Shown: positions 6,201 to 23,789 of the stretch, piece after piece
How positions within the stretch are numbered: the stretch's first letter is position 1
Layout: each line of letters starts with the position of its first letter
Assembly: GCA_029309925.1 (NCBI GenBank)
Contig: JARKND010000001.1
Span: 1,302,001 to 1,366,000, forward strand
Direction of reading: 5' to 3'
Length of the DNA stretch: 64,000 nucleotides
Source of the DNA: Fulvivirgaceae bacterium JP3-4
Lineage (GTDB): Bacteria > Bacteroidota > Bacteroidia > Cytophagales > Cyclobacteriaceae
Made by a program: the position numbers and the translations under genes
Notes under the pieces: generated by a model
The model's input: the letters and a program-made list of their open reading frames with translations, nothing else
Database searches by the model: none
Told to the model about the DNA's origin: nothing

Positions 6201-9200
6201 TGATACAAACGAACTGAACGCTGCCAGCCTGGATTTTGTATTATCGACAGTCACGCCTGTTATCGTTGCCTGAATCGCCACTTTATCAATCACCGTGGCT
6301 TTGAATGTCGTCCGTATTCTGAGGTCTTCAAAAGTATTATCAGTGATTGCAAATGGTCCGCTGAACACAAGGTTCACACTGGCCGCAGCTGCGACTTCGG
6401 CAAGTCTGTTATCGTTGTCATCAAAAATTGCGATGGTCGCAAGACTGGCGAAATGGTTGAGTGTAAGTGTTACACCGGTAACATCCGTGTTCAGGTTATC
6501 TGTATCGTTGTCCGTTATCCGGATTGTGACAATGTTGTCGGTATTGGCGACTGTCAGAGCCGAAGTAGCTGTGTGCGCATTGTATTCTGCGAGATCGTAG
6601 GTTGTCTCTTCACTCGCATTCACCTTTGCCACCGTAGTCGCGGCCGATTGTGAGAAGCTGATATTCCGGTTAATGGAAAGCGCAGTCTTGTTTCCGGAAG
6701 CAAAGACAATGTTTGCATCCGTAGTCGAAATGTTGGCGACTGCCGTAGTCGTTGTGAGGTTGGCAGCAACATCAGCAACGAGGTAATAGTAGTATGTCGT
6801 TCCCGAATTCAGGGTCGCATTTATTCCTGTAAAGCTGGCGGATGCGTTTGTAGCTACCAGTCCACCTACGATGCCTGGTGTTGTTGTAGAAAACAATCTG
6901 AAGTTCGACAATTTCGCGGCTGTCGCGGTCAGCGTGAAAGCGATTGAGTTCAGCGTTTGCGTTCCTGTTGTGTTTACCTGGAAGCCTGCAAGTACTGCGT
7001 TTGTTGATCCGGCCTCCAATGGCAATACCGTAACGGGTGCGCCTGTCACTTCAAGTATTGTTGCGAGGAGTTCGGTAATATCAATGGCATTGCTGAATGA
7101 ACCAAAAGCTTCTTTAAATCCAGGGGTGATGGAGACGTTGGCTGGCAGCATGCTGATGGTAAAATCATTCGCAGAATTAACCGTGCTTCTGATGTCGGCC
7201 TGCAGTGTAAACGTTGTGGCATTCGTCACATCAACTGCAGTAAAACCGGAAACTGTAAGCTGCGTGCCGCCCAGGTTCAGCGTGTACAGTTCAACGCCTG
7301 CTATATTCACACCGTTGACAAGCAGCTCGAAGTTTTCGAGGATGTTCGTAACGTCAGTGCTGAAATTGAAAACGATCGGAGAGCTCAATGACTGCGTTCC
7401 GTTTGAATTTACAGAGAAGGAAAGGAGATCAAGATTGTCCTGGTCTCCGACAGCCGTGGCGGCATCAGCAAGTTGCGTGAAGTCAGCTTCGAGTGCTGTG
7501 ACATCCACACTGTTTGAGAATGTGCCGAATGCCTCGACAAATCCAGCGCTGATCGCAATGCCTGCGGGAGCGATGTTCACCGTGAAGTCACTTGCTGACG
7601 TTGCCGTTGCGCGAATATCTGCGACAAGTGTAATGTCAGTGGAGTTTGTGACGTCAATCGCGGTGAAGCCAGTGACGGTGAGTTGATTTCCCCCGATGTT
7701 CAACGTATATATTTCAACACCCGGAACGTTAACCCCGCCAACCTGAAGATCAAAGTTTTCAAGGATGGCTGAAACGTTTGTATTGAACGTGAAGACCAGC
7801 GGGCTGTTGATACTTTGGGTTCCGTTTGAGTTGACATTGAAAGCAAGGATGTTCACATCATCCTGATCGCCAAGCGCAGTGGTTGTTGCTGCATTTTGAG
7901 TAAAGTCTGCTGAAAGACTTGTGACGTCAACTGTGTTTGAGAACGTGCCGAATGCCTCAGCAACTCCCGGGCTGATTGTTACGCCCGCAGCTGCCAGATT
8001 CACTGTAAAATCATTGGTGGAAAGAACGAGAGGTCTGATGTCTGCATGGAGACTGATATCCGTTGAATTGGTAACATCGATCGCGGTGAAGGCTGATACC
8101 GTCAGGGTCGTGCCGGCACCGGAAAGGTTGTACAGCTCAACGCCCCCAACATTAACGCCATTTACACGGAGATCGAAATTTTCAAGGATATTGGTAACGT
8201 CAGTGTTGAAGGTGAATACAAGCGGAGTGTTAATCGACTGTGTACCATTGGAGTTTACGTTGAAGCTGAGCAGTGTTACTCCACTTTCATCGCCAACCGC
8301 AGTAGCAGCATCTGCATTTTGCGTGAAGTCAGCTTCGAGTGCTGTGACATCCACACTATTGTTGAAAGTAAATGTCTCAACACCACCGGTACTTGGCGTG
8401 ACTCCGGTATTCGCCAGTGTTGCGGTAAAGTCACTTGCCGATGTTGCCGATTCCTTAATGTCGGCCAGCAGGCTGAAGTTCGTAAGGTTAGTCACATCGA
8501 CACCCGTGAAGGCCGCAACGGTAAGTTGTGTACCCGCCCCGTTTAAGGTATAAGTTTCCACGCCACCGATATTTACGCCATTTACCTGCAGGTCGAAGTT
8601 TTCGAGAATGTTAGTAACGTCTGTATTGAAAGTAAATACGAGCGGGGTGTTGATCGATTGCGTTCCATTTGAGTTTGCAGAGAACGAAAGTATAGCAACA
8701 TCGTCATCGCCACCACTCGCAGTTGCTGCCGCAGCCACCTGCGTAAAGTCGATTTCGAGGGCGGTTACGTCAACGGAGTTGCTGAACGTTCCAAACGCTT
8801 CGACCGTTCCGACATCCACCGCTACACCACCTGCAGCGAGATTGATCGTAAAATCGTTGGCGGAGGTTGCACCTGCCTTGATATCCGCCAGGAGCGAGAA
8901 GTCTGTTGAGTTCGTTACATCAACAGCTGTGAAAGCCGCGATTGTCAATTGTGTTCCCGCGCCATTCAGCGTGTAGGTTTCGCTGCCTGCGATGTTTACC
9001 CCATTGACGCGCAGGTCAAAATTTTCAAGGATATTAGTAACGTCAACGTTGAATGTCAGCACGAGCGGGGTGCTGATCGACTGAATGCCATTCGAGTTTA
9101 CATTGAACGCCAGAAGGTTTACATCTTGCGTGGTGGCAGCTGCTACTCCATCATCAGCGCTTTGGGTAAAATCAGCAGTAGAAGCTGATACGTCAACACT

Positions 9201-11030: not shown

Positions 11031-11057
11031 ATCAACAATAAAAAGAATACAACGATT

Positions 11058-12344
11058 TTATTTCAATTCGCCATTCGAATCGGTTTTGACAAGCATGACC
11101 GATGAAAGGCCAGCGATCGTGTTGGTTCCGCATATGAGGAAGCCACCATCTTTTGTTAACCTGATCGAGGATGCAGTTTCATCACCCGTTCCGCCAATGC
11201 GCTTCGACCAGGTAACATCACCTGCATTGTTCACTTTGATCAAAAGAATATCAAGGCCACCAAATCCCGATTCCACTGTGCTGGCAGATGATCCGGCAAT
11301 CACAAACGCACCTTCAAGGGCGCTTGTAATTGCATCGCCTGTGTCATTTGTTCTCGAGCCATCCTCTGCAGCATCGTCAATGTCACCCAGTGCGATACCG
11401 TCAAAATATCTTTCGCTTCCGCGGATAATCGCTCCGTTGTTGTCGACCCGTACAAAGTAGATGTTGGATTTTGATCCGTCTTCATCGGCACTTGTTCCGA
11501 CAACGCCAAATCCAACGGGCGATTTCTGGATGTCGCTTGGGGAGTGGTTGCGGGTGGAGTTTTCACCGAACAAATCGTTGTTGGCGAATGTTGAATTGCG
11601 TTCCACAAATGCAACGCTTAAGTACTGATCAGACCTGGTTTGATCTGCCTGGAATGTCTTGCTTGCCCACACCAGCTTGGAAGATGGCGAAAGAAATAAC
11701 GAATTACAGTTGATGTAGTCACGGTCCTGCAGCCGATAATACTGCGTCCATTGATGTGAGAAGTCAGAGGCGTTTACGCTGGTCACGTAGGCACGTTCAT
11801 TCTGGCCACGGGCTTTGCGCGATCCGAGGATGAGGATCTCGTTGGAGTTTGGCAGCAGTCCATTGCCGTGAAAGTCAATTTCAATCTGATTACCGCTCCC
11901 GTCATCCTCTGCCTCTTCCTGGATCAGATATTGTTGCACCTCACCTTGGGTATCGAGCCGCATAAGGAGGGTTTGCGTGTTCACAAACTGGGTCGGATCG
12001 TTCGAATTAGGGTTTATTTTTATACTATCTCCTAAAACTAAGTAACCCGATTCCAGGGGTTTAATTGACCTCAGTTTAGTATTTTCATATAGGCGTTCCC
12101 ACATCTGAAAACCCTTGGCATCAGTCTTAATGACCAGGGAGTGAAAGTTGTCATCCTCTTGTGGGATATTCGCGAGAAGGATAAAACCACCATCTGTATC
12201 CAATTCTGCAACAGCTCCCTGAAAGTTACTGCCACTACTATAAAACTGAATAAACGAGTCACGCTCGGTCAGTTCCGCATCATCAAATTTGGTACATGCG
12301 CCAATTACTGCAGCAAGACAAAAGAAAGTAAAACTCGTTCTCAT
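11058..12344 (-). CDS. Secreted lipoprotein with propeller-like repeats
   Basis: 428 residues. The N-terminus is a lipoprotein signal with lipobox VIGAC (Cys17), so the mature protein is predicted to be acylated and anchored in a membrane, probably the outer one. The body has several 'DGGFILLAN / LLMRLDTQGE / DGGFLICGT / MLVKTDSNGE' segments of the kind that form beta-propeller blades in Bacteroidota surface proteins. No enzyme motif was recognised. It starts 1 base after the stop of the barrel protein gene and ends 27 bases before the giant T9SS cargo gene, so the three are very likely co-transcribed. A role as partner or anchor for the giant protein is inference. Confidence 0.8.
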   Translation of the reverse strand: MRTSFTFFCLAAVIGACTKFDDAELTERDSFIQFYSSGSNFQGAVAELDTDGGFILLANIPQEDDNFHSLVIKTDAKGFQMWERLYENTKLRSIKPLESGYLVLGDSIKINPNSNDPTQFVNTQTLLMRLDTQGEVQQYLIQEEAEDDGSGNQIEIDFHGNGLLPNSNEILILGSRKARGQNERAYVTSVNASDFSHQWTQYYRLQDRDYINCNSLFLSPSSKLVWASKTFQADQTRSDQYLSVAFVERNSTFANNDLFGENSTRNHSPSDIQKSPVGFGVVGTSADEDGSKSNIYFVRVDNNGAIIRGSERYFDGIALGDIDDAAEDGSRTNDTGDAITSALEGAFVIAGSSASTVESGFGGLDILLIKVNNAGDVTWSKRIGGTGDETASSIRLTKDGGFLICGTNTIAGLSSVMLVKTDSNGELK

Positions 12345-12345
12345 G

Positions 12346-13380
12346 TTATCGGGTAAGTTTCTTTGGGTTATAGCGGTTCAACACATATCCGACTGAGAAC
12401 GAGAGCGTGTTCAGCCGATAGACTCCATCCACTGACTTGTAGTCGATAATAGATTCGGGGTGCGCGTAAACATCTTCGCTGTCCAGAGACGGAAGAATAT
12501 TGTACTGATACCGGAGTTCGATGATCAGGTAGCCTTTCGATATTTTCTTTTTAATACCTGCGGACGCAAGGAGGCCCACATTGAACTTATTGCGGGCATC
12601 ATCTACACTTAACTGGCGTTCTTCTACCGGAGAGAAACCTGTGCGCTCTGACAGCATCTTCTTGTTTACAGTCATCAGAAATTCCGGGGCAACGCCTGCG
12701 GCTGCAAAAACTTTGAATGTTTCACCTTTTGAGAAAACATCGTGCTGCAGAGAGATCGGCACTGATATCCAGTTCTGCGTTTCGGTTGTTGAAGTAGTGC
12801 GAACTGTATCACCTTTGCTGTTGCTGCCGTTGAAGGTTCGGTTCTGAAACGAAAGTTCAGGGTTAAGGACGAACTTCTTCAAGAGTCCTTTCAGAGGAAT
12901 TTCACCTGCAACGGCTACTGTAAAGCCAAATCCATATTTGTATTCGGTTGAACCTGAATTGACGTAATCAGCGCTGATTACACTGGGTTGTGTAATGATC
13001 GTGCCGGCCTTAAGTCCCAGCCTGTAGACAGGCCATGTTCTGAATGTATTGTACAATGCTACAAATTCTGCCGGATCAACAGCGTCATTGGGACGGAACT
13101 CATTGTTCGTCTGCAGAAGGAAAAGCATTTGCTCATCTGCTTTTGCAGGCTCTTCGAGATAAATGTAGGTTAATGCCAAAAGCTTATGAGCGTTGACCTT
13201 TTCCTGATCTGTGAAGCCTGTTCGCAAACAGCTTTCAAGCAGACTGGGAAGTTCCTGAAGTCGACCTTGCTCGTAGACTGACTGTGCCAGTCGGAGCGTC
13301 TGCGCACAGGTTGACTGGGCACGCGCAGAGAATTGGTGGCAAAATATTGCCACAAGGAAAAATGGTAAAACTTTCCTCAT
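12346..13380 (-). CDS. Outer-membrane beta-barrel protein with N-terminal helical (TPR-like) domain
   Basis: 344 residues from the ATG at 13380; the open frame extends 10 codons further up, but MRKVLPFFLVAIF is the natural start because it begins the signal peptide (cleavage near ARAQ). Residues about 25-110 are helical and TPR-like (YEQGRLQELP, LLALTYIYLEEPAKAD). From about residue 120 the sequence alternates as in a PorT/OmpA-type outer-membrane barrel and ends with SFSVGYVLNRYNPKKLTR. It lacks the PorP/SprF hallmark N-terminus. It lies 27 bases after the hairpin that separates it from the ATPase gene and is followed after 1 base by the lipoprotein gene. It may help place or export the giant cargo; that is inference. 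Confidence 0.75.
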   Translation of the reverse strand: MRKVLPFFLVAIFCHQFSARAQSTCAQTLRLAQSVYEQGRLQELPSLLESCLRTGFTDQEKVNAHKLLALTYIYLEEPAKADEQMLFLLQTNNEFRPNDAVDPAEFVALYNTFRTWPVYRLGLKAGTIITQPSVISADYVNSGSTEYKYGFGFTVAVAGEIPLKGLLKKFVLNPELSFQNRTFNGSNSKGDTVRTTSTTETQNWISVPISLQHDVFSKGETFKVFAAAGVAPEFLMTVNKKMLSERTGFSPVEERQLSVDDARNKFNVGLLASAGIKKKISKGYLIIELRYQYNILPSLDSEDVYAHPESIIDYKSVDGVYRLNTLSFSVGYVLNRYNPKKLTR

Positions 13381-13406
13381 ACAGGTATAGTAGATAAATA
13401 AAGTTG

Positions 13407-13430
13407 GCACCCGGAAAATCTTCCGGGTGC
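13407..13430 (-). terminator. Strong intra-block hairpin (terminator or attenuator)
   Basis: A perfect 10-bp stem, GCACCCGGAA / TTCCGGGTGC, closes a 4-nt loop; on the minus strand it is followed by CCAACTTTATTTA. It lies 12 bases after the stop of the STAND ATPase gene and 27 bases before the start of the barrel protein gene. The downstream T-run is weak, so partial read-through is plausible, lowering expression of the three surface genes. It could also simply end the upstream trio. Confidence 0.75.
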
Positions 13431-13441
13431 TGATTTAAAAA

Positions 13442-16400
13442 TTACTTGTCGTTCAGCGGCAGGTTGTCACACGTCTTTTCTTGTGGAAGGTCTTTTGCAA
13501 TGTAAAGCTGCCACTCTTCCAAAGTCATATTGCGTTTCAGATACTCTCCGCAGAGAATGCCAGCCATCGTTTTAAAGTGAGTAGGCCAGGCGTGAATTGT
13601 CTGATCTACCTGTCCGACTTTTGTCTCTTTAACACTTTGAATCCCCGCCATAAGCTGTTCATCGTCAGATGTAAAGGCTAGGTTCCAAACCCAGTCGTGG
13701 TCGCTCAGCACGATAGGAGGCTGTGCGAGCTCCTTGTAATTCCACAGACGTATGGTAGCGTCTTTGCTTGCCGTGGCCATGAAGGTACCTGCGTAATTGA
13801 ATTTGATATTTTCAATAGTGGCAGTGTGCCCTGACAACGGATTGCCTACGCGCCCATCCATCTCAACGATACGGATCTGGCCAGACTCACTTCCAACCAC
13901 CATACGACCATCCGGTGCAAATGCTACGGCAGTCAACGGAGAATTGCCAACCCTGGTTTTAGTCTCTTTGTAACTATTTTTGATATCCCAGATGTACAGG
14001 AATCCATCCACACCCGCACCTGCAAGCTTTGTCCCTTCATTGTTGATCTGCAAGCTTGAGATCCTCGTATTAGCAGCGATAACTTCCCTTGCAGTTGACA
14101 AGTCTGAATACTTTATGCTCTGACCGGAATTGTCGCGGGCATAGAAACCATTGCCGTCAGGTGTAAAGTGGATGTCACCAATATCTGATTTGTATCCATA
14201 GATCTTCTTAGGTGCTTCGGCTGGCTTACGCAGATCGTAAAGCTCGACATAGTTTGCATCGCGGTTTGCAGGGAATAATCCGCCTGCAGCGAGGAAATTC
14301 TCATCCGGACTGATATCCAGCGTATATACCAGGTAATCATTGGCCGGATTACTATCATGGATACGGTCACCAACGATTTCATTCGGCTTCCACTCGTTGT
14401 TTTTGCCACCGGTCCACTGGATGATCTTGCCATCGCTACCACCAGAATAAATGTGATTATTATTCCTGCGGGTATCCAATGCTCGTGCTCCACCCTTGAC
14501 GTGTCCCTCAAGACTCTTCGTCAGGCCGTGACTGCGTGTCTTCAATGCAGTAAATAACCCGTTGTAGATGTCGTTGTCATATGGATAACCCTCATACTTG
14601 TCATTGAATATGTAAGCCTGCTGCGCCAACAGTGATTGCTGGTCAGGATCATTGCCAAGTTCTTTCGACTTGACAGCGATAGCTTTCGCGATCGACAAGT
14701 ATCTGCGCGTGTCAGCAAGTGCCTTCGCTGCGATAGCTTCTTTTTCATTCTTTTGCGCTATTACCCGGGCGTCTATTGCATCCTTCTCATTCTTGAGTGC
14801 CAGCTTTTCGTTTTCCTCTGCGCGTTTCTTTTCAAGAAGGGCTATTTGCTCCTGCTCACGCGCGATTCGTGCATTGGAATCGGATTCAGCCTTCGCAGCA
14901 ATCGCAGCCTGACGCTGGATCTCTGCAGCCTCACGCTGCTGATTGGCAATTACTGTTTGCTGCTTTGCAATACCCTCCTGCCGTTTTGCCTCTTCGGCAT
15001 TGGCCACAGCTTGTTCCCTTGCCGTATCTGCCGCAGCCTTCTGCACAAATGCAAACACAAGGAATATTAAGGATACAATTGTAGCCGTTGCCAGAATCAG
15101 CGCAACAATACGCGCGCGCTGAAGCTTACGCTTCTGTTCGAGTTCCTTGATCCGTTGTTCGGTCTCCCATTCCTTCTTCGAATACTCGAGGAAGATCATG
15201 GTGCGCTCAAATGCTGGATGATATCGCTGGCCCCAAACCAGTGTCGGCTTATGTTTCACCTGCCAGTTCAGCGCAAGCTGCAGATCCGGTGGTCTCCAGA
15301 GACCTGCTTTTCCGACCTGATACATCGATGCGGCTTCGGCCAGACGTGTATACATCTGTACGGCATCCGCCTCATCATCAACCCAGTTCTTCAGTCGCAC
15401 CCAGATGCGCATCAGACTTTCATGAGAGAGATCGACAATAGCCTTTCCGCCAAGTGGTGTTCCGAATGCAGGCGTCAGCAAAGATCTGCCTGGCTCTCTG
15501 AACTTTTCGATTACCTCCGCCACATCGTTTTCAGAAACGTCAGCAATTGCCGCGATCTCCTGAAGTTTTGTCGGTCTTCTGATTCCAAAGTTCTCACCGC
15601 GTTTCTCTGTAATCGCCTTAAATAGAATTTCGCAAATACGCTTTTGCTCTTCTGTCAGTTCGTCAAAGGCTTCGTTGGCGTGCATAGACAACGCTTCAGC
15701 CATAGTTCCGATCGCCTCATAGTGTTTGAGGTCGACTGGTTCGTCATCATAATCTTTATAACGCGTCCAATAACTCCAGGTACGCATTAGCGCGTGCTGC
15801 AGAATCGGAAGCTGATCAGGATTGTCACCCAGATCGTTCAACAACTGCTGCGTCAGGCGCGGGGTTACCTTGGCACCTCCAACGGCTACTGGCCCTTCAA
15901 TCGCCCTGCGCTTCTGATCACGAGTAAGTTGTGGAATGAGGTAGTGGCTATCGTTGATCTTTCGTGTGAGGTCCGGGAATTGCGCACAGTCACCGATGAA
16001 ATCGGAGCGCATGGTAATGGCGACATAGATTGGCGCATCCGGGTAGTTAACTGCTTCGATGAGAAGGTTAACAAAAGCCAACGTTTCATTTACAGAATTT
16101 GCATCCTGGCTGTCTTTGAAACGAAAGAGTTCTTCAAACTGGTCGACCAGTACCAGGTAGTTGACATCTTTCTTTCTGCGGCCCTGTTCAATAGCTTCGA
16201 CCAGACCCAGCGAGCTACTTTTCAGCAATGTTGAAAAGATCGTGCGTTTGATTTTCTTCTCTTCAATATCCGCAGCCTGGTACTCAGGATTATTCTTCAG
16301 CAGGGATTCTGCAAGGTTATCGATCGGACCGGCACCCGGTCTCGTGACGATTACCTCCCAGTCGGGACTGGCATCAGTGAGAAATCCTCCGTAAAGGATC

Positions 16401-16606
16401 GGCATTACACCACAATAGATGAAGGATGACTTACCACTTCCTGAGGGACCGATGACGGCTACAAATCGGCTCTTTGAAAGTTTGAGTAGAACCTCATCAC
16501 TTTGTCCTTCACGTCCGAAGAACAGGTGTGACTCTTCAATTTTAAACGGTCGCAAACCCGGGAACGGGTTAGCCGTAGAAACCTGCTGGTCGATTATCTG
16601 GTTCAT
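13442..16606 (-). CDS. Membrane-anchored nSTAND ATPase with WD40 propeller
   Basis: 1054 residues. The start NPFPGLRPF...HLFFGRE is the signature of the novel STAND NTPase 1 (nSTAND1) family. Walker A GPSGSGKS is at residues 53-60 and Walker B LVLVDQFEE at 151-159. A winged-helix-like region follows, then 'DLSHESLMRIW' (392-402), typical of these proteins. One transmembrane helix (about 500-521) is followed by an Ala/Glu/Gln/Lys-rich coiled coil (about 525-645) and seven WD40-type repeats (about 690-1010, for example ATASKDATIRLWN). STAND ATPases act as signal-gated switches that oligomerise; relatives are often misnamed 'high-affinity carbon uptake protein Hat/HatR'. The ATPase side is predicted cytosolic; topology of the propeller is uncertain. 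It starts 3 bases after the TIR-like gene stops. Confidence 0.88.
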   Translation of the reverse strand: MNQIIDQQVSTANPFPGLRPFKIEESHLFFGREGQSDEVLLKLSKSRFVAVIGPSGSGKSSFIYCGVMPILYGGFLTDASPDWEVIVTRPGAGPIDNLAESLLKNNPEYQAADIEEKKIKRTIFSTLLKSSSLGLVEAIEQGRRKKDVNYLVLVDQFEELFRFKDSQDANSVNETLAFVNLLIEAVNYPDAPIYVAITMRSDFIGDCAQFPDLTRKINDSHYLIPQLTRDQKRRAIEGPVAVGGAKVTPRLTQQLLNDLGDNPDQLPILQHALMRTWSYWTRYKDYDDEPVDLKHYEAIGTMAEALSMHANEAFDELTEEQKRICEILFKAITEKRGENFGIRRPTKLQEIAAIADVSENDVAEVIEKFREPGRSLLTPAFGTPLGGKAIVDLSHESLMRIWVRLKNWVDDEADAVQMYTRLAEAASMYQVGKAGLWRPPDLQLALNWQVKHKPTLVWGQRYHPAFERTMIFLEYSKKEWETEQRIKELEQKRKLQRARIVALILATATIVSLIFLVFAFVQKAAADTAREQAVANAEEAKRQEGIAKQQTVIANQQREAAEIQRQAAIAAKAESDSNARIAREQEQIALLEKKRAEENEKLALKNEKDAIDARVIAQKNEKEAIAAKALADTRRYLSIAKAIAVKSKELGNDPDQQSLLAQQAYIFNDKYEGYPYDNDIYNGLFTALKTRSHGLTKSLEGHVKGGARALDTRRNNNHIYSGGSDGKIIQWTGGKNNEWKPNEIVGDRIHDSNPANDYLVYTLDISPDENFLAAGGLFPANRDANYVELYDLRKPAEAPKKIYGYKSDIGDIHFTPDGNGFYARDNSGQSIKYSDLSTAREVIAANTRISSLQINNEGTKLAGAGVDGFLYIWDIKNSYKETKTRVGNSPLTAVAFAPDGRMVVGSESGQIRIVEMDGRVGNPLSGHTATIENIKFNYAGTFMATASKDATIRLWNYKELAQPPIVLSDHDWVWNLAFTSDDEQLMAGIQSVKETKVGQVDQTIHAWPTHFKTMAGILCGEYLKRNMTLEEWQLYIAKDLPQEKTCDNLPLNDK

Positions 16607-16609
16607 GGC

Positions 16610-18055
16610 TTAAGCGTTAAATTCTTTTAGCAACGATTTTATTGGCTCTGATGAATGCTGCGGGTCGGTATGAATGACGCGCAGGTTCTGACTTTTGAAA
16701 CTCTCAACATTCAATGTTGAACCTGGGGTCGTGACAATAGCCTTTCCGATGATCGGTTTTTTTCTTCCGAAGCCAGGTGCCTTGAGCAGATCCAGCGCTT
16801 TCATCCGCACCCACTGCTCGTTCACCTTTCCCTTGTAAATAATGGCGGCATCGAATGACCTCAGATTGTCAATGTGCTTCTTTCTTACTTCAAGCAATTC
16901 GCCTTCAAACTGAGGGATCAGCACACGATAGCCCGATTTCTCCAGCACTTCGCGGATCGGTTTTACATCAGCCACATCCACACGATCGTGCATGAGGTAG
17001 ATCGAGCGTCCTGAATTCTCTTCGGCAGGCTTTTTCTCACCGGCATCGACAAGTTCTTCACGCATGATATTCTTAAAGTCCTCGAGTGGTGTCTGCAGAA
17101 TTTCGGCACCTTCCTGTGCCTCTACATCACGCTTGATATTTTCAATAAACCCTTTTTGTTTTTCACTGGCATTGTTCAGGATAGGGGAGATCCAGATGAG
17201 TCGCATAAACTCTTCTCCGGATTGTCTCGCGCGAACACTTTTTTCTGCTGCAATCTTATTCTGAATATCAACCACCGAACGATCGGAGCCTACAGGGATT
17301 TCTCCATACGCACTGCCGATGAGGTGAATCGAAAGCTGGCTTTCATGGATATCGTGCTGAACCATTTTCTCCAGTTCGGCAAATGTTCCGGGCAAAGTCT
17401 GGTTGGGTAACACGATATAGCCGTGACGTTGCAACTCACGTTTAATAATATTGCGTTGCACGGAGAGGTCGTGACCGGTCTCTGCCAGGTAGATCGTTTT
17501 ACGTTTGTAGAAATTCTTCACTTCGGCTTTGGCGCTGCTATCGCGAAGTTGCATGAGTGTATCAAAGATGTCATACGCCAGATCCACCATCTTCATCCAG
17601 TACTGGCGCTCAGCCTCGGTGCTGAAGTAGTCAGTGTATTCGCGCACTTCGCCAGAGTCCGAATCGAGCTGGTACATGTCGTAGCCGATCAGGTCTCTCA
17701 ACTTAGGTGGTTGTTCCTGTGCCCCAAGCGGTGACTTGAAAACTTTGAAGATGCGGTTTCTGCCCTTGGATGACTCCGTGTTTTTGATGAACATCTCAAC
17801 GTGGTCGAGGCACGATCCGGATTGGATGAACTCCTTCGAGAGGATCGGAACAATAACTCCTACGTTGTCGAGTTTTGGTGAAACCATATTGTCATACTCA
17901 GCCTTGAGCATGATGTTGGATTTTTCACCAAGAACCTGGTTCAGCATCAGCTCCAGGAAGCGCTTAAACTGGGAAACCCATCCCGGCTCCTTTTTCTCAT
18001 TCTCTTCGTTGTCCTTCTCTGCGAAGACGATCAATACATCGATATCAAATCCCAT
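16610..18055 (-). CDS. Protein with three tandem TIR-like domains
   Basis: 481 residues from ATG 18055; a GTG at 18061 directly abutting the upstream stop is the alternative. Three Rossmann-like TIR-type units are visible: residues 1-160, starting GFDIDVLIVFAEKD and with the 'S-x-x-C-x-x-x-x-E' position (SGSCLDHVE, Glu 87) where TIR NADases carry their catalytic Glu; about 180-335, starting KTIYLAETGHDLSVQR (closest to DUF4062/TIR-like); and about 365-481, starting SIYLMHDRVDVADV with AAIIYKGKVNEQWVRMK and GRKKPIIG, the form found beside nSTAND ATPases. No signal peptide or membrane helix, so cytosolic. TIR domains either scaffold signalling or cleave NAD; which applies here cannot be told. 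It sits between the transporter-like gene (zero gap) and the STAND ATPase (3 bases), implying one complex. Confidence 0.8.
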   Translation of the reverse strand: MGFDIDVLIVFAEKDNEENEKKEPGWVSQFKRFLELMLNQVLGEKSNIMLKAEYDNMVSPKLDNVGVIVPILSKEFIQSGSCLDHVEMFIKNTESSKGRNRIFKVFKSPLGAQEQPPKLRDLIGYDMYQLDSDSGEVREYTDYFSTEAERQYWMKMVDLAYDIFDTLMQLRDSSAKAEVKNFYKRKTIYLAETGHDLSVQRNIIKRELQRHGYIVLPNQTLPGTFAELEKMVQHDIHESQLSIHLIGSAYGEIPVGSDRSVVDIQNKIAAEKSVRARQSGEEFMRLIWISPILNNASEKQKGFIENIKRDVEAQEGAEILQTPLEDFKNIMREELVDAGEKKPAEENSGRSIYLMHDRVDVADVKPIREVLEKSGYRVLIPQFEGELLEVRKKHIDNLRSFDAAIIYKGKVNEQWVRMKALDLLKAPGFGRKKPIIGKAIVTTPGSTLNVESFKSQNLRVIHTDPQHSSEPIKSLLKEFNA

Positions 18056-18061
18056 GTGCAC

Positions 18062-21000
18062 TTATGGATTAGGTTGTGAATACTGTAGGTTGTGTTCCGT
18101 AATGTTCCTGATCAGGCCCTGAACAAGGTCATGATGGTTAGCCATTACGAAATAGAAGTCGATAAGGTTTATCTTGAATATTACTGTCCTTTCTCTTGCT
18201 TCCAGCAGATTCGCCTCTGGGGCAGGTCCGTTCTGAAACAGGTCACCGTAGACACTTCCCCTGCGAAGGATGCCAAGCATCTGATCGTTGTTTTTGAGCG
18301 CTACCTCACCATGCGCTACGATAAAGATCGGGCTCTGAAGGTCGTCATTGGAGAATTTCACTTTCTCGCCCGGCTGAATCTCCAGCGGAACTACTTTGTC
18401 GCTGAGGTCAGCAAGCAATGCACCATGAATGCCTTTGAACACCGGTAATGTCTTGAAGAACATCACCATTTCGATTCCAAGGAAGAATCCGTCATCGAGA
18501 CCTTCCAGCAGTTCGTTATTTTCGATTGACGAATCGATAAACTTCTTATCACGCAACGGGAGGCGCTCGCGAACCAGCTGGTATGCCTTCGCATCTTTAT
18601 TGTGCATCACCCATGCTGATGTCTCCTGTAGCAGACGATCATTGTTAAATACCTGCGCAATCAGGCCACGGCTGACCCTGAACTCCGGCAGATACGCTGC
18701 AGCGTGAATGGCACACGCCTTTGTCCAGCGATTCGTCTGATTGAAGTCGCGATTCAATACGTAGTTGATTACCTGGATCGGATTGTAGCTTTCACGCGGG
18801 AAGAACAACTGCAACGCGTGGAGTTTATCTTCGGTGGAGCTGTCATCGAGCAACGGGAATAACTTCGGCTTCAATTCCTGATCCACGAACAAGTCCAGAA
18901 GTTCCATCGCGAAAGCAAGATTATCCGGGTCACCGGATTCAATATTGTCCCTCACGAGCTGTATGGACTGCGGATCATAAAGAATTGACAGCAGGATTCC
19001 GATCTGGTCGAAATTCTGTTCAACTTCTTCCTTCAGGGCTTCACGCAGGAACTTAAAGAATTCGTTGTCGGGAAGTTCCTTGATGGCAGCCATGTTCCAG
19101 ATTGCCTTGCTGATCTCGGTATCGAGCAATTCAAATACTTCACGTCTTTCCCGGTCCTCAGCCTGGTAGTTGATATAGCGAAGAGAATAGAAGATCTGTC
19201 TTACAATTTTTTTGTTCGGATAATCCGCTTTTTTCCACAGCAGTTTTAACGCTTCAGGCCCGCCTATGCGGCCCATGATCTGAACAATCCTCAGCATGAC
19301 GAGGTCCGTCTGTCCGGACTTATGAAAGGCGGCTTCGAGCGTTGGTAGCACAACTTCCCCAGCTTCTTTCAGCGCTGCAGCCGCATGATGGCCGAACATC
19401 GGTGATGACAACATTTCGATCAATACTGGCCATGCTTCCTGGCGTTTTGTTTTGCGCGCAGTGAGCAAGGCTTCGAAACGAACTTTAGCATCGACATCGC
19501 GGAGCAATTCCAGCAAAATGAAAATTGTACGCTGGCTCACCATCTTGCGCAGAAGTTTTGCGGCAAGGATTCTGTCATTGGTCTTGATCGACTTGCTGAG
19601 TTTCATCAGGTTATCGACAGAAATTGAGAGCAGATCACTGTCTTCAATAGATCCGAGTGCCTGTTGCGCCAGTACCTTGATGTCTGTCTTTGACGCGTCC
19701 TTGTCGATGCCCATGGCGCGCATTTTTTCCTCGGCAAATTTCCGAAGGCTGCGATTTTCGCTGTCCACCATCTGAATGAGCGCGTTTTCAAAGAGTGCAG
19801 GCTCAAGCTTTTCCATCAGCTTCATCCCGTAGATTACCTTGTCTTCAATCGAGCTTGTGATTTCTTTTTCCAGTACACTCATAATCGTGTACTCTTTCAC
19901 CACCTTCACATCGCTCTTCGCTTTGTTCGTGACAAGCGTTTCCTGCAATGTCTTACGGTAGTTACGATGCATCCGGTTCACCGCGAGGTACCATAGGCCG
20001 AGGAACGGGATGGTAAAAATGGTTACATAGATCAGGTTGAAGACCTGGAACTGCGTGAGCACGAAAATGAGTCCACCGGCAACCGCAGTTGCGAAAGCAG
20101 TAACGATACCTTCGATTTTTGTTTGAACGTCAATGCGAATATTTGACTGAATCGGCAGCAGGTAAAGTTTGAATGTTGGGTTGTCAAGGGCTTCTTTCAA
20201 GGATCGCACCAGCAGCTTGCTGAGGGAGATCGAGAGGAAGAAAAACAGGAAATACGTATCTGCTTTTGAATAACCGAAGAAGATTCCCAAGCCGAGGGCC
20301 GCGCCAGTGAAAAGCATCAGCAACACCGGGCTTATCAGCAATGACACGCGCATTCCATATTGTTTGTTGATCGAGTCAGAGGCGAAAACGTCCACCAGGA
20401 AACTGAAGATCACAATGGTTACCTCGAAGAGAGAAAGGAAAGTTGCAAGTTCTTCAGGGTTGTCCTGATATTGCAAAGTCACAACGTTCAGAAATGAGAA
20501 GTCAACGAAGTTGATCGCGCACATCGAAAAGATGATGAACAGTGACATGTAAAGGATGTAACGGTTTGCAATAAAGTCGGTCACCTTCAACTTTGAGTAC
20601 GCGGCCTTCTCTTGTTTAAACGTGGTGATCTTATTTAACTGGCCCAACGCCAGCCATACGAACATCACGAGGAAGCCCACAATACTTACCAGCCCGAGCG
20701 TATAAAGGTCTACCAGGTCCAGGCCTCCGTATGTCAATATCAGCGGAATCGAAAAGAATGAAATGAAAGTAGCGAACATGGCACCCATGTCCACAGATCC
20801 TACGAGGCGCTTGGCCTGGCGAAGGTTAAATAGACGTCCGAACGAACCCCAGAACACCAGGTAAGTAAGAAACGAGAAAGGTAAAATCTGCGTGAAGCCG
20901 AATTCGAACATTCCGTTCGGGTCAGCAAAATATCCATCTGCAAATTCAATGAAAGCTGTAGTTGCTGTTACATATATGAGGGAAAGTGCAGCAAGAAGGG

Positions 21001-21244
21001 GAAAGGGGATTCTGTTTTGAAGGAAATTATATACAATGGTAGCGATCAATCCATACAAACCCGACTTGAAAAGGGCATAGGGCAGGTCTTTGATTTCGCT
21101 AAAGTGCTGTAGGTAGAGCGACTGCGAGGCAACGCTGGTAGTTGCGATAAACAGTGCCATGAAAATGCCCATAACGAATAGCAAACCCACACGGCCTGCC
21201 TCATCTGGCTCAACATCCAGCATACGTAACAGTCTATCCTTCAT
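18062..21244 (-). CDS. Nucleotide-transporter-like membrane protein fused to HEAT repeats and a cNMP-binding-like domain
   Basis: 1060 residues. Residues about 15-430 contain around twelve hydrophobic helices and resemble the Npt1/Npt2 (ATP/ADP translocase-like, MFS-fold) family, including the 'LVGSVDMGAMFATFIS' segment. Residues about 440-880 are alpha-helical HEAT-type repeats (VRFEALLTARKTKRQEAWPV, LKLLWKKADYPNKKIVR). Residues about 915-1045 form a cyclic-nucleotide-binding fold (LPVFKGIHGALLADLSDKV, IFIVAHGEVAL, GSVYGDLF), but the phosphate-binding cassette lacks the usual Arg after GE, so cAMP binding is doubtful. First gene of the minus-strand block; its stop codon abuts the start region of the TIR-like gene. 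The transported substrate, if any, is unknown; it may act as a receptor rather than a pump. Confidence 0.82.
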   Translation of the reverse strand: MKDRLLRMLDVEPDEAGRVGLLFVMGIFMALFIATTSVASQSLYLQHFSEIKDLPYALFKSGLYGLIATIVYNFLQNRIPFPLLAALSLIYVTATTAFIEFADGYFADPNGMFEFGFTQILPFSFLTYLVFWGSFGRLFNLRQAKRLVGSVDMGAMFATFISFFSIPLILTYGGLDLVDLYTLGLVSIVGFLVMFVWLALGQLNKITTFKQEKAAYSKLKVTDFIANRYILYMSLFIIFSMCAINFVDFSFLNVVTLQYQDNPEELATFLSLFEVTIVIFSFLVDVFASDSINKQYGMRVSLLISPVLLMLFTGAALGLGIFFGYSKADTYFLFFFLSISLSKLLVRSLKEALDNPTFKLYLLPIQSNIRIDVQTKIEGIVTAFATAVAGGLIFVLTQFQVFNLIYVTIFTIPFLGLWYLAVNRMHRNYRKTLQETLVTNKAKSDVKVVKEYTIMSVLEKEITSSIEDKVIYGMKLMEKLEPALFENALIQMVDSENRSLRKFAEEKMRAMGIDKDASKTDIKVLAQQALGSIEDSDLLSISVDNLMKLSKSIKTNDRILAAKLLRKMVSQRTIFILLELLRDVDAKVRFEALLTARKTKRQEAWPVLIEMLSSPMFGHHAAAALKEAGEVVLPTLEAAFHKSGQTDLVMLRIVQIMGRIGGPEALKLLWKKADYPNKKIVRQIFYSLRYINYQAEDRERREVFELLDTEISKAIWNMAAIKELPDNEFFKFLREALKEEVEQNFDQIGILLSILYDPQSIQLVRDNIESGDPDNLAFAMELLDLFVDQELKPKLFPLLDDSSTEDKLHALQLFFPRESYNPIQVINYVLNRDFNQTNRWTKACAIHAAAYLPEFRVSRGLIAQVFNNDRLLQETSAWVMHNKDAKAYQLVRERLPLRDKKFIDSSIENNELLEGLDDGFFLGIEMVMFFKTLPVFKGIHGALLADLSDKVVPLEIQPGEKVKFSNDDLQSPIFIVAHGEVALKNNDQMLGILRRGSVYGDLFQNGPAPEANLLEARERTVIFKINLIDFYFVMANHHDLVQGLIRNITEHNLQYSQPNP

Positions 21245-21473: not shown

Positions 21474-23789
21474 ATGAAAGCAGCTTTTTACCTGTTTGTC
21501 TTCGTTTTTGCGCTCCAATCCCCACTTTTTGCGCAGGGAAATAAAAAAGCACTGGCTGAAGCCGAGCGTTTTTACGGCATTAAGGCCTATGACCAGGCGC
21601 TACCACTTTTTCTAGAAGCGATCCAGGCGGGCGAAAAGGACCCTCTGGTCCACTACAAAACGGGGATGGCCTATCAAAAATCGACTGACCCGAATGAGCA
21701 GGTAAAAGCAATAAAATACCTCGAGTATGCTGCAAAAAGTGGTAGCAACATCCCACTGGCAGTGCACTACGACCTTGGCGAATTGTACCTCCGCGATGAA
21801 AATCTCCATCAAGCCACGGCCAGCTTTACAAAATATAAAGAGCTTTCAAAAGCTGATAAGGCTGCGGTCGCAAAAGCAGACAAAGCCCTGGAAGTTTGTC
21901 ACACGGCTACTGCGCTTATGTCTGTGCCTCGCGATATCAAAGTGCACAACTTTGGCGAAGTAATTAATTCGAAACTCATTGAATACAATCCTGTTGTTTC
22001 CGCTGATGAAAGTGTGATGGCATTTACAGCACTGCGCCCGAACACGGGGAAGACACGTTCTGGTGATAAATTTATCGAGGAGGTTTATATCTCGTACAAC
22101 CAGAATGGTACGTGGTCTGAACCGAAGGTGATCTCCATTGCCTCGGAATACAACGTGGGGTCTGCAGGTATTTCGCCTGACGGCCAGAAGATGCTGATCT
22201 TCATGGGAACAACTACGGATCCGGGAAGCCTTTTTATGATCAATAAAACCGCTGAGACTTGGTCCAAGCCTGCCATCATTGCGCCTACGATCAACCATCC
22301 AAAATATCTCGAGTCGACAGCAAGCATCACGCCTGATGGAAAGACCATTTACTTCGCCAGCGATCGTGTTGGCGGACAGGGCGGAATGGATATCTGGAAA
22401 ACGCAGCAACAGGCTAACGGAAGCTGGAGTACGCCTGTCAACCTTGGCCCGGAGATCAACTCCAAAGCAAACGAAGATGCCCCGTTCATTCACCCCGACC
22501 AGAAGACCTTGTTCTTTACTTCCGATGGCCACACCACGATGGGAGGCCGCGATATTTTTGTTTCGAAGTTTGTGAACTCAAAGTGGACTTCGCCCGAGAA
22601 CATGGGATACCCGGTAAATACCACTGCCAATGACAACTACTTCACGTTGATCGCAGATGGTACGCGCGGTTATTTTTCCTCCGACAGAAAAGGAGGAATG
22701 GGCTCACAGGATATCTATTACCTCGACATGCCGGCTAACGCTGCTAACATTCCGTTGACGATGATCAAAGGGAAGATCCTCAACGCAGAAACCGGTAAGC
22801 CAATGCCGACCAAGATTTATCTCGTAGACAATGAGACCAACAAGAAACTCGACTTCGTGTACGATCCGGATCCGGCAACGGGCAATTACCTCATCATTCT
22901 CCCTCCGGCAAAGAATTACGACATGATCATTGAATCAGAAGGTTTTTTGCCGTACACGCTGAACATCAACGTTCCGAATCAGGACTACTTTTACGAATTG
23001 TACCAGATGATCTACCTGAAAACGATCAAGCAGTTTGATGTGGTGGTAGGACAGGAAGTTCAGGTGAAGAACGCCTTTTACGATACAGATCAGGATGTCA
23101 AGGCAGACCTCAGGAAGAGTCATGAGGCAAAGCTGGTGCAGAGTGGCAATGTCGATGTGTATGACATGATGCTCGACCTGATTGCCGCACAGGACCAGGA
23201 AGGTATCGACTACCTGGTTGGTTTGCTGAACCATACGGATCCGATCGAAAGTGTAAATTTCGATGAAACGAAAAACTCTAAGATCGAAGTAGCTACCCGA
23301 ACCTATTACTACGATGAAAGTGACGAAAGTAAATTCGAGCAGAAAGATGTTGGAGGCAAAACCATTTTCTCGCTTCCGACAATGAAAGTATCTGAGGAAG
23401 TGAAGAAGCAAAAGGACAAGCCGGCTGCGAAGAAATCAAACGCTGACGCTGCCGCACTTTCAAAGAATGCTAAAATCTATTTTGACGCAGGCAAGAGCGA
23501 TCTGAAACCGCAGCACAACACTGAGCTGGACAATCTGCTCGCTGTATTGAATAAGTATCCGGAGCTCGGAATTGAGATTTCTGGATTCGCTTCCGCGGAA
23601 GGCTCCGAAGAACTGAATCGCGAACTTTCAAACAAGCGCGCGATAGCCGTGCTCGATTACCTCAACCATAAAGGAATTGTGCGCAGAAGGATTGTTGCAA
23701 AAGGTTACGGTGCATCCAAAGATCAGGCCGGCTCTAAAGAAGAGGGAAGAAGGGTGGAAGTGAAGATCGTTGAGCTTACCGAAAAGTAA
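21474..23789 (+). CDS. PorE-like OmpA-family protein (TPR, PD40 propeller, CRD, OmpA)
   Basis: 771 residues. Signal peptide ends near LFAQ. TPR repeats occupy about 22-145 (AERFYGIKAYDQALPLFLEA). Four or more PD40/WD40-like blades follow at about 160-420 (SITPDGKTIYFASDR, FIHPDQKTLFFTSDG, GYFSSDRKGGMGSQDIYY). A carboxypeptidase-regulatory-like domain spans about 430-515 (MIKGKILNAETGKPMPTKI). The C-terminus (about 660-771) is an OmpA peptidoglycan-binding domain (IYFDAGKSDLKPQ ... NRELSNKRAIAVLDYL). This domain order is that of PorE, a T9SS component tethering the machine to peptidoglycan; several paralogues with this order exist in Bacteroidota, so the exact identity is not certain. Periplasmic or outer-membrane associated. 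It is divergently arranged with the block encoding the T9SS cargo. Confidence 0.8.
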   Translation: MKAAFYLFVFVFALQSPLFAQGNKKALAEAERFYGIKAYDQALPLFLEAIQAGEKDPLVHYKTGMAYQKSTDPNEQVKAIKYLEYAAKSGSNIPLAVHYDLGELYLRDENLHQATASFTKYKELSKADKAAVAKADKALEVCHTATALMSVPRDIKVHNFGEVINSKLIEYNPVVSADESVMAFTALRPNTGKTRSGDKFIEEVYISYNQNGTWSEPKVISIASEYNVGSAGISPDGQKMLIFMGTTTDPGSLFMINKTAETWSKPAIIAPTINHPKYLESTASITPDGKTIYFASDRVGGQGGMDIWKTQQQANGSWSTPVNLGPEINSKANEDAPFIHPDQKTLFFTSDGHTTMGGRDIFVSKFVNSKWTSPENMGYPVNTTANDNYFTLIADGTRGYFSSDRKGGMGSQDIYYLDMPANAANIPLTMIKGKILNAETGKPMPTKIYLVDNETNKKLDFVYDPDPATGNYLIILPPAKNYDMIIESEGFLPYTLNINVPNQDYFYELYQMIYLKTIKQFDVVVGQEVQVKNAFYDTDQDVKADLRKSHEAKLVQSGNVDVYDMMLDLIAAQDQEGIDYLVGLLNHTDPIESVNFDETKNSKIEVATRTYYYDESDESKFEQKDVGGKTIFSLPTMKVSEEVKKQKDKPAAKKSNADAAALSKNAKIYFDAGKSDLKPQHNTELDNLLAVLNKYPELGIEISGFASAEGSEELNRELSNKRAIAVLDYLNHKGIVRRRIVAKGYGASKDQAGSKEEGRRVEVKIVELTEK

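Follow-up and report, generated by a model that had tools for sequence, protein, structure and literature searches.

Gene content and organization of the locus

The locus described here lies in a window of 64,000 nt from Fulvivirgaceae bacterium JP3-4 (GenBank assembly GCA_029309925.1, contig JARKND010000001.1, positions 1,302,001 to 1,366,000 of the forward strand). According to the open reading frame (ORF) map, it is a run of six genes, all on the minus strand, that ends with the gene of a giant cargo protein of the type IX secretion system (T9SS). Genes 1 to 6 are referred to as NTT, TIR, STAND, OMP, LIPO and giant; L and G numbers denote the loci and genomes that were compared. Computational comparison with relatives points to a constant core, predicted to be cytoplasmic, and a predicted extracytoplasmic half that appears to be exchanged as a block.

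The initial annotation had described a tight operon of three genes separated by 0 and 3 bases. These genes are present (ORFs 18062-21244, 16610-18061 and 13442-16606, minus strand), their order is kept in relatives and they diverge congruently (r 0.96-0.98). The boundaries had to be revised, since the run continues past gene 3 with 12346-13410, 11058-12344 and 297-11030 (minus strand; gaps of 31, 1 and 27 bases) and thus holds six genes. The gaps of 0 and 3 bases are correct for the ORFs as such; an alignment of homologues places the start of gene 2 at the next ATG, 18055, which widens the first gap to 6 bases. The features are as follows.

18062..21244, minus strand: gene 1 (NTT), NTT (Npt1/Npt2-type) transporter fold, HEAT repeats and a degenerate cNMP-binding domain, 1060 aa
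16610..18055, minus strand: gene 2 (TIR), TIR, DUF4062 and a third TIR-like domain, 481 aa from the ATG; a GTG at 18061 is in frame too
13442..16606, minus strand: gene 3 (STAND), nSTAND1 NTPase, single transmembrane helix, coiled coil and WD40, 1054 aa
15053..15109, minus strand: transmembrane helix of gene 3 (residues 500-518), predicted inner-membrane crossing and left border of the exchanged cassette
13445..15052, minus strand: predicted periplasmic half of gene 3 (coiled coil and WD40), co-varies with the outer-membrane genes
12346..13410, minus strand: gene 4 (OMP), OMP_b-brl_2 beta-barrel, 354 aa; signal peptide and TPR-like N-terminal part by eye
11058..12344, minus strand: gene 5 (LIPO), lipoprotein with Cys17, modelled as an all-beta propeller (pLDDT 94)
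297..11030, minus strand: gene 6 (giant), secreted protein of 3577 aa with repeats, PKD, Ig_7 and a T9SS type A sorting domain
300..536, minus strand: sorting domain (T9SS) at the C-terminus of gene 6, residues 3499-3573; the exchanged cassette has its right border here
536..15052, minus strand: putative exchangeable extracytoplasmic cassette, deduced from paired relatives
21474..23789, plus strand: PD40 and OmpA gene, PorE-like in these domains; divergent, a frequent neighbour outside the core

Constant core and putatively exchanged outer half

Relatives were compared at 80 named loci, the best of 92 gene 2 matches, which come mostly from one clade, that of the window, and are 45-80% identical. 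Across these loci, two of them duplicates, the correlation of pairwise identities is 0.96-0.98 among NTT, TIR and STAND and 0.90 between OMP and LIPO; between core and outer genes it ranges from 0.53 to 0.83. The duplicates (L123 of L020, L181 of L027) were kept in this correlation and in the 111-row STAND counts and were dropped from the distance tests. Given NTT and TIR, the partial correlation with OMP and LIPO is 0.68 for the STAND coiled coil and 0.67 for the WD40 part (0 of 1000 permutations), and -0.03 for the NTPase, with 702 of 1000 permutations as high (n=56). The corresponding values for NTPase, coiled coil and WD40 are -0.17, 0.66 and 0.66 with 78 rows and 0.00, 0.68 and 0.71 with 54 rows. 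The WD40 part also retains a partial correlation with the core (0.42-0.79). Along STAND, in windows of 60 residues (n=54), the signal of the outer genes stays at or below 0.20 up to residue 510 (0.14 at 481-540), rises to 0.35 at 511-570 and is 0.36-0.62 thereafter. In windows of NTT and TIR it does not exceed 0.29, even where identity is 0.43-0.5 (n=54).

Clustering of 78 OMP rows, L079 not among them, yielded the classes S1 (36 rows) and S2 (19 rows), with 23 rows in small clusters, and no LIPO cluster is common to S1 and S2. On a quick tree of NTT and TIR (LG+G4), the cassette class switches 9 times among 54 labelled rows, at least 8 of these switches being forced by starred branches.

Individual pairs were compared where core identity is 75% or more (98 pairs). 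L052 and L058 are 96% identical in NTT, 97% in TIR and 99% in cytoplasmic STAND, and 50% in the coiled coil, 49% in WD40, 34% in OMP and 26% in LIPO; DNA identity per 20 codons drops from 97% to 72, 70 and 40% across STAND codons 474-534. The window and the isolate locus L008 share 79, 80 and 93% in NTT, TIR and cytoplasmic STAND, then 42, 47, 32 and 26% in coiled coil, WD40, OMP and LIPO. Outer parts also differ within a class: L039 has a core 90% identical to those of L046 and L047 and matches them at 52% in periplasmic STAND, 45-48% in OMP and 38-39% in LIPO, all three being S1. Among the ten pairs with a core identity of 95% or more, periplasmic STAND is 49-99%, OMP 34-99% and LIPO 26-99% identical. 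The case for exchange is made because pairs of similar core identity carry very different cassettes. In each of the 58 pairs that drop by at least 25 points, the single best change point in STAND lies between residues 491 and 532.

The borders were examined at the DNA level. G747 and G748, the genomes of L046 and L039, are 78-80% alike from upstream of the operon to about STAND codon 529. The next 10 kb or so show no similarity apart from 689 bp at 66%; the two genomes match again over the final ~280 bp of the giant gene (80%) and downstream of it (74-81%). Likewise, between the window and the L008 genome, the match within the final 3.6 kb of the giant gene is confined to the terminal ~250 bp (65%); the genes downstream of the giant show 69-75% DNA identity. 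With borders at the STAND transmembrane helix and at the tail of the giant gene, the exchanged block corresponds to the predicted extracytoplasmic part minus the secretion tail.

Conservation of gene order and distribution

In the testable named loci, the expected neighbour is in place in 76/77 cases for NTT, 76/77 for STAND, 70/71 for OMP and 67/68 for LIPO, with L073 as the exception throughout. A wider set of 38 loci was picked from places found in 53 of 291 genomes of the order, so the operon is not universal in the order. There the counts are 30/38 for NTT, 33/38 for STAND, 33/37 for OMP and 27/36 for LIPO: L152-L155 and L157 are without an adjacent NTT, no STAND is seen in L144 and L158, and L147, L149, L156, L161 and L162 have no LIPO in line. 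The three genes of the initial annotation are thus kept together in order, rather than lying apart in most relatives. The gene after LIPO is a large ORF, defined as at least 1300 aa, or at least 400 aa where the stretch ends within it, in 58 of 60 testable loci of the named set and in 17 of 23 of the wider set. In the lineages with 20-46% gene 2 identity the order is kept where the fetched stretch shows no QueA or PD40 gene. Gene 2 was found in 5 of 149 genomes of the class, with strong matches in only two. The figures for gene 1 and, at E 1e-60, gene 3 are 14 and 9 of 198 genomes.

A paralogous operon without TIR, NTT-STAND-OMP-LIPO-giant, forms one run in L165 and L166. The window genome carries a TIR-less set as well, divided between an NTT paralogue (L163, G000:C1:2696474-2699587) and, on another contig, STAND-OMP-LIPO with a large ORF (L164, start of G000:C4); the two nSTAND1 matches in this genome are those of the operon and of the paralogous set. 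Gene conversion from the TIR-less operon was considered as a source of the second cassette class and rejected, as the paralogues are equally distant from both classes (periplasmic STAND ~28-29%, OMP ~24-26%, LIPO ~19-20%).

Some loci deviate in composition. In L127 and L141 gene 2 lies alone in its usual position beside PD40 and QueA, a pattern that would fit loss of the other operon genes. In L167 a HAMP-SpoIIE phosphatase gene (4423-6465) sits between NTT and TIR, and in L176-L178, from other Bacteroidota families, STAND, two barrel proteins and LIPO-like proteins are encoded beside a GAF-guanylate/adenylate cyclase. The phosphatase and cyclase neighbours point to signalling.

Proteins of the core

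The initial assignment of protein 1 as an Npt1/Npt2-like transporter fold joined to HEAT repeats and a cyclic-nucleotide-binding-like domain (cNBD) holds, and all three parts occur in one chain. Pfam returns HEAT_2 and, below threshold, cNMP_binding (18.4 bits, cut-off 27.5); a phmmer search identifies the cNBD as cGMP-kinase-like (E 3.6e-8). The transporter domain resembles a solved ADP,ATP carrier in a search of PDB sequences (E 1.2e-6), and its N-terminal 501 residues searched alone against the same sequences gave no carrier match. Residue 137, at what is presumably a substrate-site position, is Arg in 99 of 107 homologues, where the aligned carrier has Glu. Of the Glu and Arg that we take to form the phosphate-binding cassette of a cNBD, the Arg occurs in only 9 of 107 homologues and the Glu position holds D in 58 and E in 24, in an alignment that is loose in this region. 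Input of cAMP through this domain was considered and is disfavoured because the phosphate-binding Arg is missing in most homologues.

Protein 2 stacks three TIR-like domains, as first proposed: TIR_2 and DUF4062 are Pfam matches, and the third domain comes from an AlphaFold2 model with three Rossmann/TIR-like domains at about residues 5-175, 187-337 and 351-480 (mean pLDDT 83, pTM 0.55). A comparison of the whole model with PDB folds was uninformative, with mixed Rossmann folds on top and TIR structures only from E ~2e-3. At what we take to be the position of the TIR catalytic Glu (SxxWCxxE region), only 10 of 71 aligned proteins have E, one of them L179, a pair outside the operon; the others have N, H, A, T, L or other residues, and the window has His. 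The presumed catalytic position of DUF4062, assigned by motif, does not keep Glu either and is acidic in 60 of 71 proteins (D 43, including the window; E 17). In DUF4062 (Swarozyc) NADases a Glu is conserved and needed (PMC13174449, preprint). Gene 2 therefore probably does not encode a standard NADase, as judged from its residues. TIR1 is the least conserved domain, with a mean column conservation of 0.50 (0.61 and 0.52 in the other two) and 4 columns at 90% (18 and 13 in the other two). In the third domain, W415, K419, D422, K425, G428, G430 and R431 are kept in 64-71 of 71 proteins, which indicates strong constraint.

The TIR Glu is present in 9 of 9 divergent homologues outside the operon, from about 5 lineages (6 by aligned column, 3 by eye). 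In a tree, the operon TIR proteins fall on one side of a branch that separates them from these nine (support 89, many long branches). Three of the nine were examined for neighbours, L160, L179 and L211; they combine TIR with one or two nSTAND1 genes, with no surface genes in the stretches covered. L160, from the family of the window, consists of a TIR-DUF4062 gene followed by two tandem nSTAND1 genes, and no outer-membrane genes were seen there.

For protein 3, the proposed nSTAND ATPase with membrane helix, coiled coil and WD40 propeller is borne out by Pfam matches to nSTAND1 (E 2.8e-95; 320.6 bits, cut-off 27.1) and WD40 and by a single transmembrane helix at residues 500-518. Walker A is present in 110 of 111 STAND homologues, as is the Walker B pattern. 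By the positive-inside rule, the flank of a transmembrane helix that is rich in Lys and Arg lies on the cytoplasmic side. Lys and Arg are more frequent in the 20 residues before the helix than in the 20 after it in 107 of 111 homologues, with 4 ties and no reversal, and related STAND proteins outside the operon share this bias (ties in L177 and L178). The NTPase is thus predicted to be cytoplasmic and the coiled coil and WD40 propeller periplasmic. That the loci diverge at the membrane helix supports this topology independently, beyond hydropathy.

Surface genes

Protein 4 is an OMP_b-brl_2 beta-barrel (Pfam). The lipoprotein Cys17 is found in 81 of 82 aligned LIPO rows, with an acidic residue within the next 8 positions in 75 of 81, and a stricter lipobox pattern fits 73 of 105 LIPO proteins. 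Its confident all-beta model has CylK and other propellers as best PDB matches. Protein 6 matches Por_Secre_tail and TIGR04183 above the cut-off and is accordingly a T9SS cargo; its signal peptide was recognized by eye only. Its N-terminal part (window ~7000-11030, minus strand) shows about ten repeats of ~110 residues by eye, and these repeats match the giants of L040, L086 and L028 and not that of the nearest relative, L008.

Downstream stretches were obtained for 20 loci, picked mostly for a visible large ORF. In 19 of them there is a giant of 2,141-5,125 residues, in some cases truncated by the 5' end of the stretch; that of L201 has no such protein. Two of the 19, L193 and L194, belong to the paralogous TIR-less operon. 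All 19 match the C-terminal 500-800+ residues of the giant of the window (BLAST E 3e-37 or better), and none matches its first 1,300 residues. The C-terminal module was found in 20 of 20 named genomes, in 19 of them at the end of this operon by coordinates; in L065 the giant gene seems to be cut off by the end of the contig.

Genomic neighbourhood

In the clade of the window, QueA adjoins the operon in 55 of 62 testable loci and the PD40 and OmpA gene in 35 of 62. TPR and CRD parts of the PD40 and OmpA protein were seen by eye only. The ten upstream neighbours in the window look ordinary: besides these two, they encode an enolase-superfamily enzyme, an amino-acid permease, a Rieske oxygenase, a Band 7 protein, a bestrophin, a TonB-plug protein and two proteins without a Pfam match. 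PADLOC gave no full-length match for proteins 1-5, only short matches of the STAND Walker region to mad3/mad8, and only generic matches for the ten upstream neighbours, namely ZorB for the OmpA region of the PD40 gene and C3a194 for the amino-acid permease.

Comparison with known systems and proposed model

Every single domain of the operon is already known; a literature search limited to open-licence papers found no description of the six-gene operon. The three-part architecture of gene 1 corresponds to the NTT-HEAT-cNBD fusion proteins of Major et al. 2017 (PMC5381601), which are called functionally unknown there and for which the accessible part of that paper reports no TIR, STAND or T9SS partners; gene 1 differs in that its cNBD falls below the Pfam cut-off and in most members is without the usual phosphate-binding Arg. 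The TIR and nSTAND1 neighbours in L160, L179 and on the Caballeronia plasmid pSBC2-4 (L211) are the same adjacent proteins, including a one-helix nSTAND1, but keep the TIR catalytic Glu and have no surface genes beside them in the stretches examined. Swarozyc NADases share DUF4062, the middle domain of gene 2, and, in the portion of PMC13174449 at hand, have another architecture and other partners. STAND conflict systems with nSTAND1 (PMC7159879, PMC8195603) likewise combine a STAND NTPase with TIR-type partners and repeat sensors, and some versions of a two-gene membrane system in PMC7159879 have transmembrane helices and an extracellular periplasmic-binding domain; neither a T9SS surface cassette nor a periplasmic WD40 half is described in the available text of these papers. 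PorP/SprF pairs with T9SS cargo and PorE (PMC9143113, PMC7192894) resemble the locus in a barrel adjoining a large cargo gene and a PorE-like PD40 and OmpA gene nearby. Here, in contrast, the barrel is of the OMP_b-brl_2 type, the cargo tail is type A, and genes 1-3 have no counterpart in what is accessible of these sources. In Porphyromonas gingivalis, also of the Bacteroidota, surface-protein variants are shuffled independently of phylogeny; these are individual surface proteins in the excerpt of PMC5266723, whereas the block described here starts inside a signalling gene, at the membrane helix.

On balance, the six genes probably encode one envelope-spanning signalling apparatus in which the cytoplasmic core is constant and the extracytoplasmic cassette exchangeable. 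The giant T9SS protein, the LIPO propeller and the barrel protein would form a complex at the outer membrane and cell surface. STAND, crossing the inner membrane once, would read the state of this complex through its periplasmic coiled coil and WD40 propeller, and the signal would travel inwards to gate the cytoplasmic nSTAND1 NTPase. The triple TIR-like protein may act as a scaffold, adaptor or nucleotide binder that partners the NTPase, and the NTT-HEAT-cNBD protein as a membrane platform or nucleotide-linked partner. The initial proposal of signalling-type proteins with a membrane input is retained; the sensor is more likely the periplasmic half of STAND with its outer-membrane partners than the transporter. 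The extracytoplasmic half would be exchanged between lineages as an allelic cassette by recombination at conserved borders, so that recognition specificity could change with a constant intracellular output.

Several points weigh against this interpretation. The distances share phylogeny, so that the permutation counts are not strict p-values; the 58 change-point pairs are not independent, and a change point at the transmembrane helix could, taken alone, reflect a rate difference. The L055/L057 pair shows a partial exchange (periplasmic STAND 92%, OMP 65%, LIPO 54%). The right border is testable in two pairs only, and several of the compared genomes are metagenome-assembled; both border pairs are on contigs of 250 kb or more, and one includes an isolate. 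The charge bias predicts the STAND topology without proving it. Gene 2 stands alone in L073, L127, L141 and L148, 8 of the 38 order-wide loci do not have NTT as the next gene, and 6 of 23 have no giant after LIPO (L128, L130, L134, L139, L146, L159). A rate difference as the full explanation was rejected because the ten pairs with a core identity of at least 95% vary from 26 to 99% in LIPO and from 49 to 99% in periplasmic STAND.

TIR together with STAND had initially been read as a switch for immunity or programmed death. NAD-depleting antiphage defence by abortive infection would be in keeping with the presence of TIR_2, DUF4062 and nSTAND1, the near-invariant Walker A, the largely acidic DUF4062 position and the TIR Glu retained by related TIR and nSTAND1 genes on the Caballeronia plasmid and in other Bacteroidota; DUF4062 is also an NADase family with antiphage members in the available part of PMC13174449. 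This reading is nevertheless unlikely and, since the TIR Glu is not conserved and the checked neighbours are housekeeping-like, not supported. The DUF4062 position is mostly Asp, the chromosomal place is fixed in the clade of the window, PADLOC found no full-length match for proteins 1-5 and only generic ones for the ten upstream neighbours, and a conserved coupling to a T9SS surface protein is unexpected for an intracellular suicide system. An outer half swapped as a block would fit a recognition receptor better than a plain anti-virus suicide system.

It is possible, if doubtful, that the operon serves the assembly or quality control of a giant T9SS adhesin, with STAND sensing export or attachment and controlling expression or energy supply; cassette exchange would then reflect pressure of phages or predators on the adhesin and involve no recognition signalling. 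The cargo gene at the end of a same-strand run, the divergent PorE-like gene in 35 of 62 loci and known cases of PorP-like barrels binding T9SS cargo (PMC9143113, as far as its accessible text goes) agree with this. In three genomes of other families, however, the STAND-OMP-LIPO set lies beside a GAF-guanylate cyclase instead. We know of no T9SS adhesin locus with NTT-HEAT-cNBD or triple TIR modules, which also counts against it. That the six genes are mere neighbours kept by slow rearrangement is very improbable: the chromosomal surroundings are indeed kept too in the clade of the window (QueA), but the order persists at low gene 2 identity in loci whose fetched stretch shows neither QueA nor PD40, and the paralogous TIR-less copies in L165 and L166 keep NTT-STAND-OMP-LIPO-giant.

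For the envelope-spanning apparatus, the exchange of cassettes suggests diversifying or frequency-dependent selection on the outside, as in recognition of self and non-self or of surface state, or in escape from phages or predators; sequence alone does not separate recognition from escape. Tentatively, the locus may represent a new kind of bacterial self/non-self receptor, an inside-out NLR-like STAND protein whose periplasmic propeller reads a polymorphic surface complex. The variable half would be swapped at the membrane helix and the secretion tail, and the constant cytoplasmic half with its catalytically altered TIR would provide the output.

In most accounts, bacterial STAND and TIR proteins sense phages inside the cell. 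In this locus, a STAND protein seems to be connected across the entire envelope with a giant secreted protein, and TIR domains without the usual catalytic residue are found inside a conserved operon. The operon also gives a context for the NTT-HEAT-cNBD fusions, which are called functionally unknown in PMC5381601, and makes it possible to test for polymorphic bacterial receptor loci with constant and variable halves. If the self/non-self interpretation is true, this would be a constant/variable receptor locus in bacteria.

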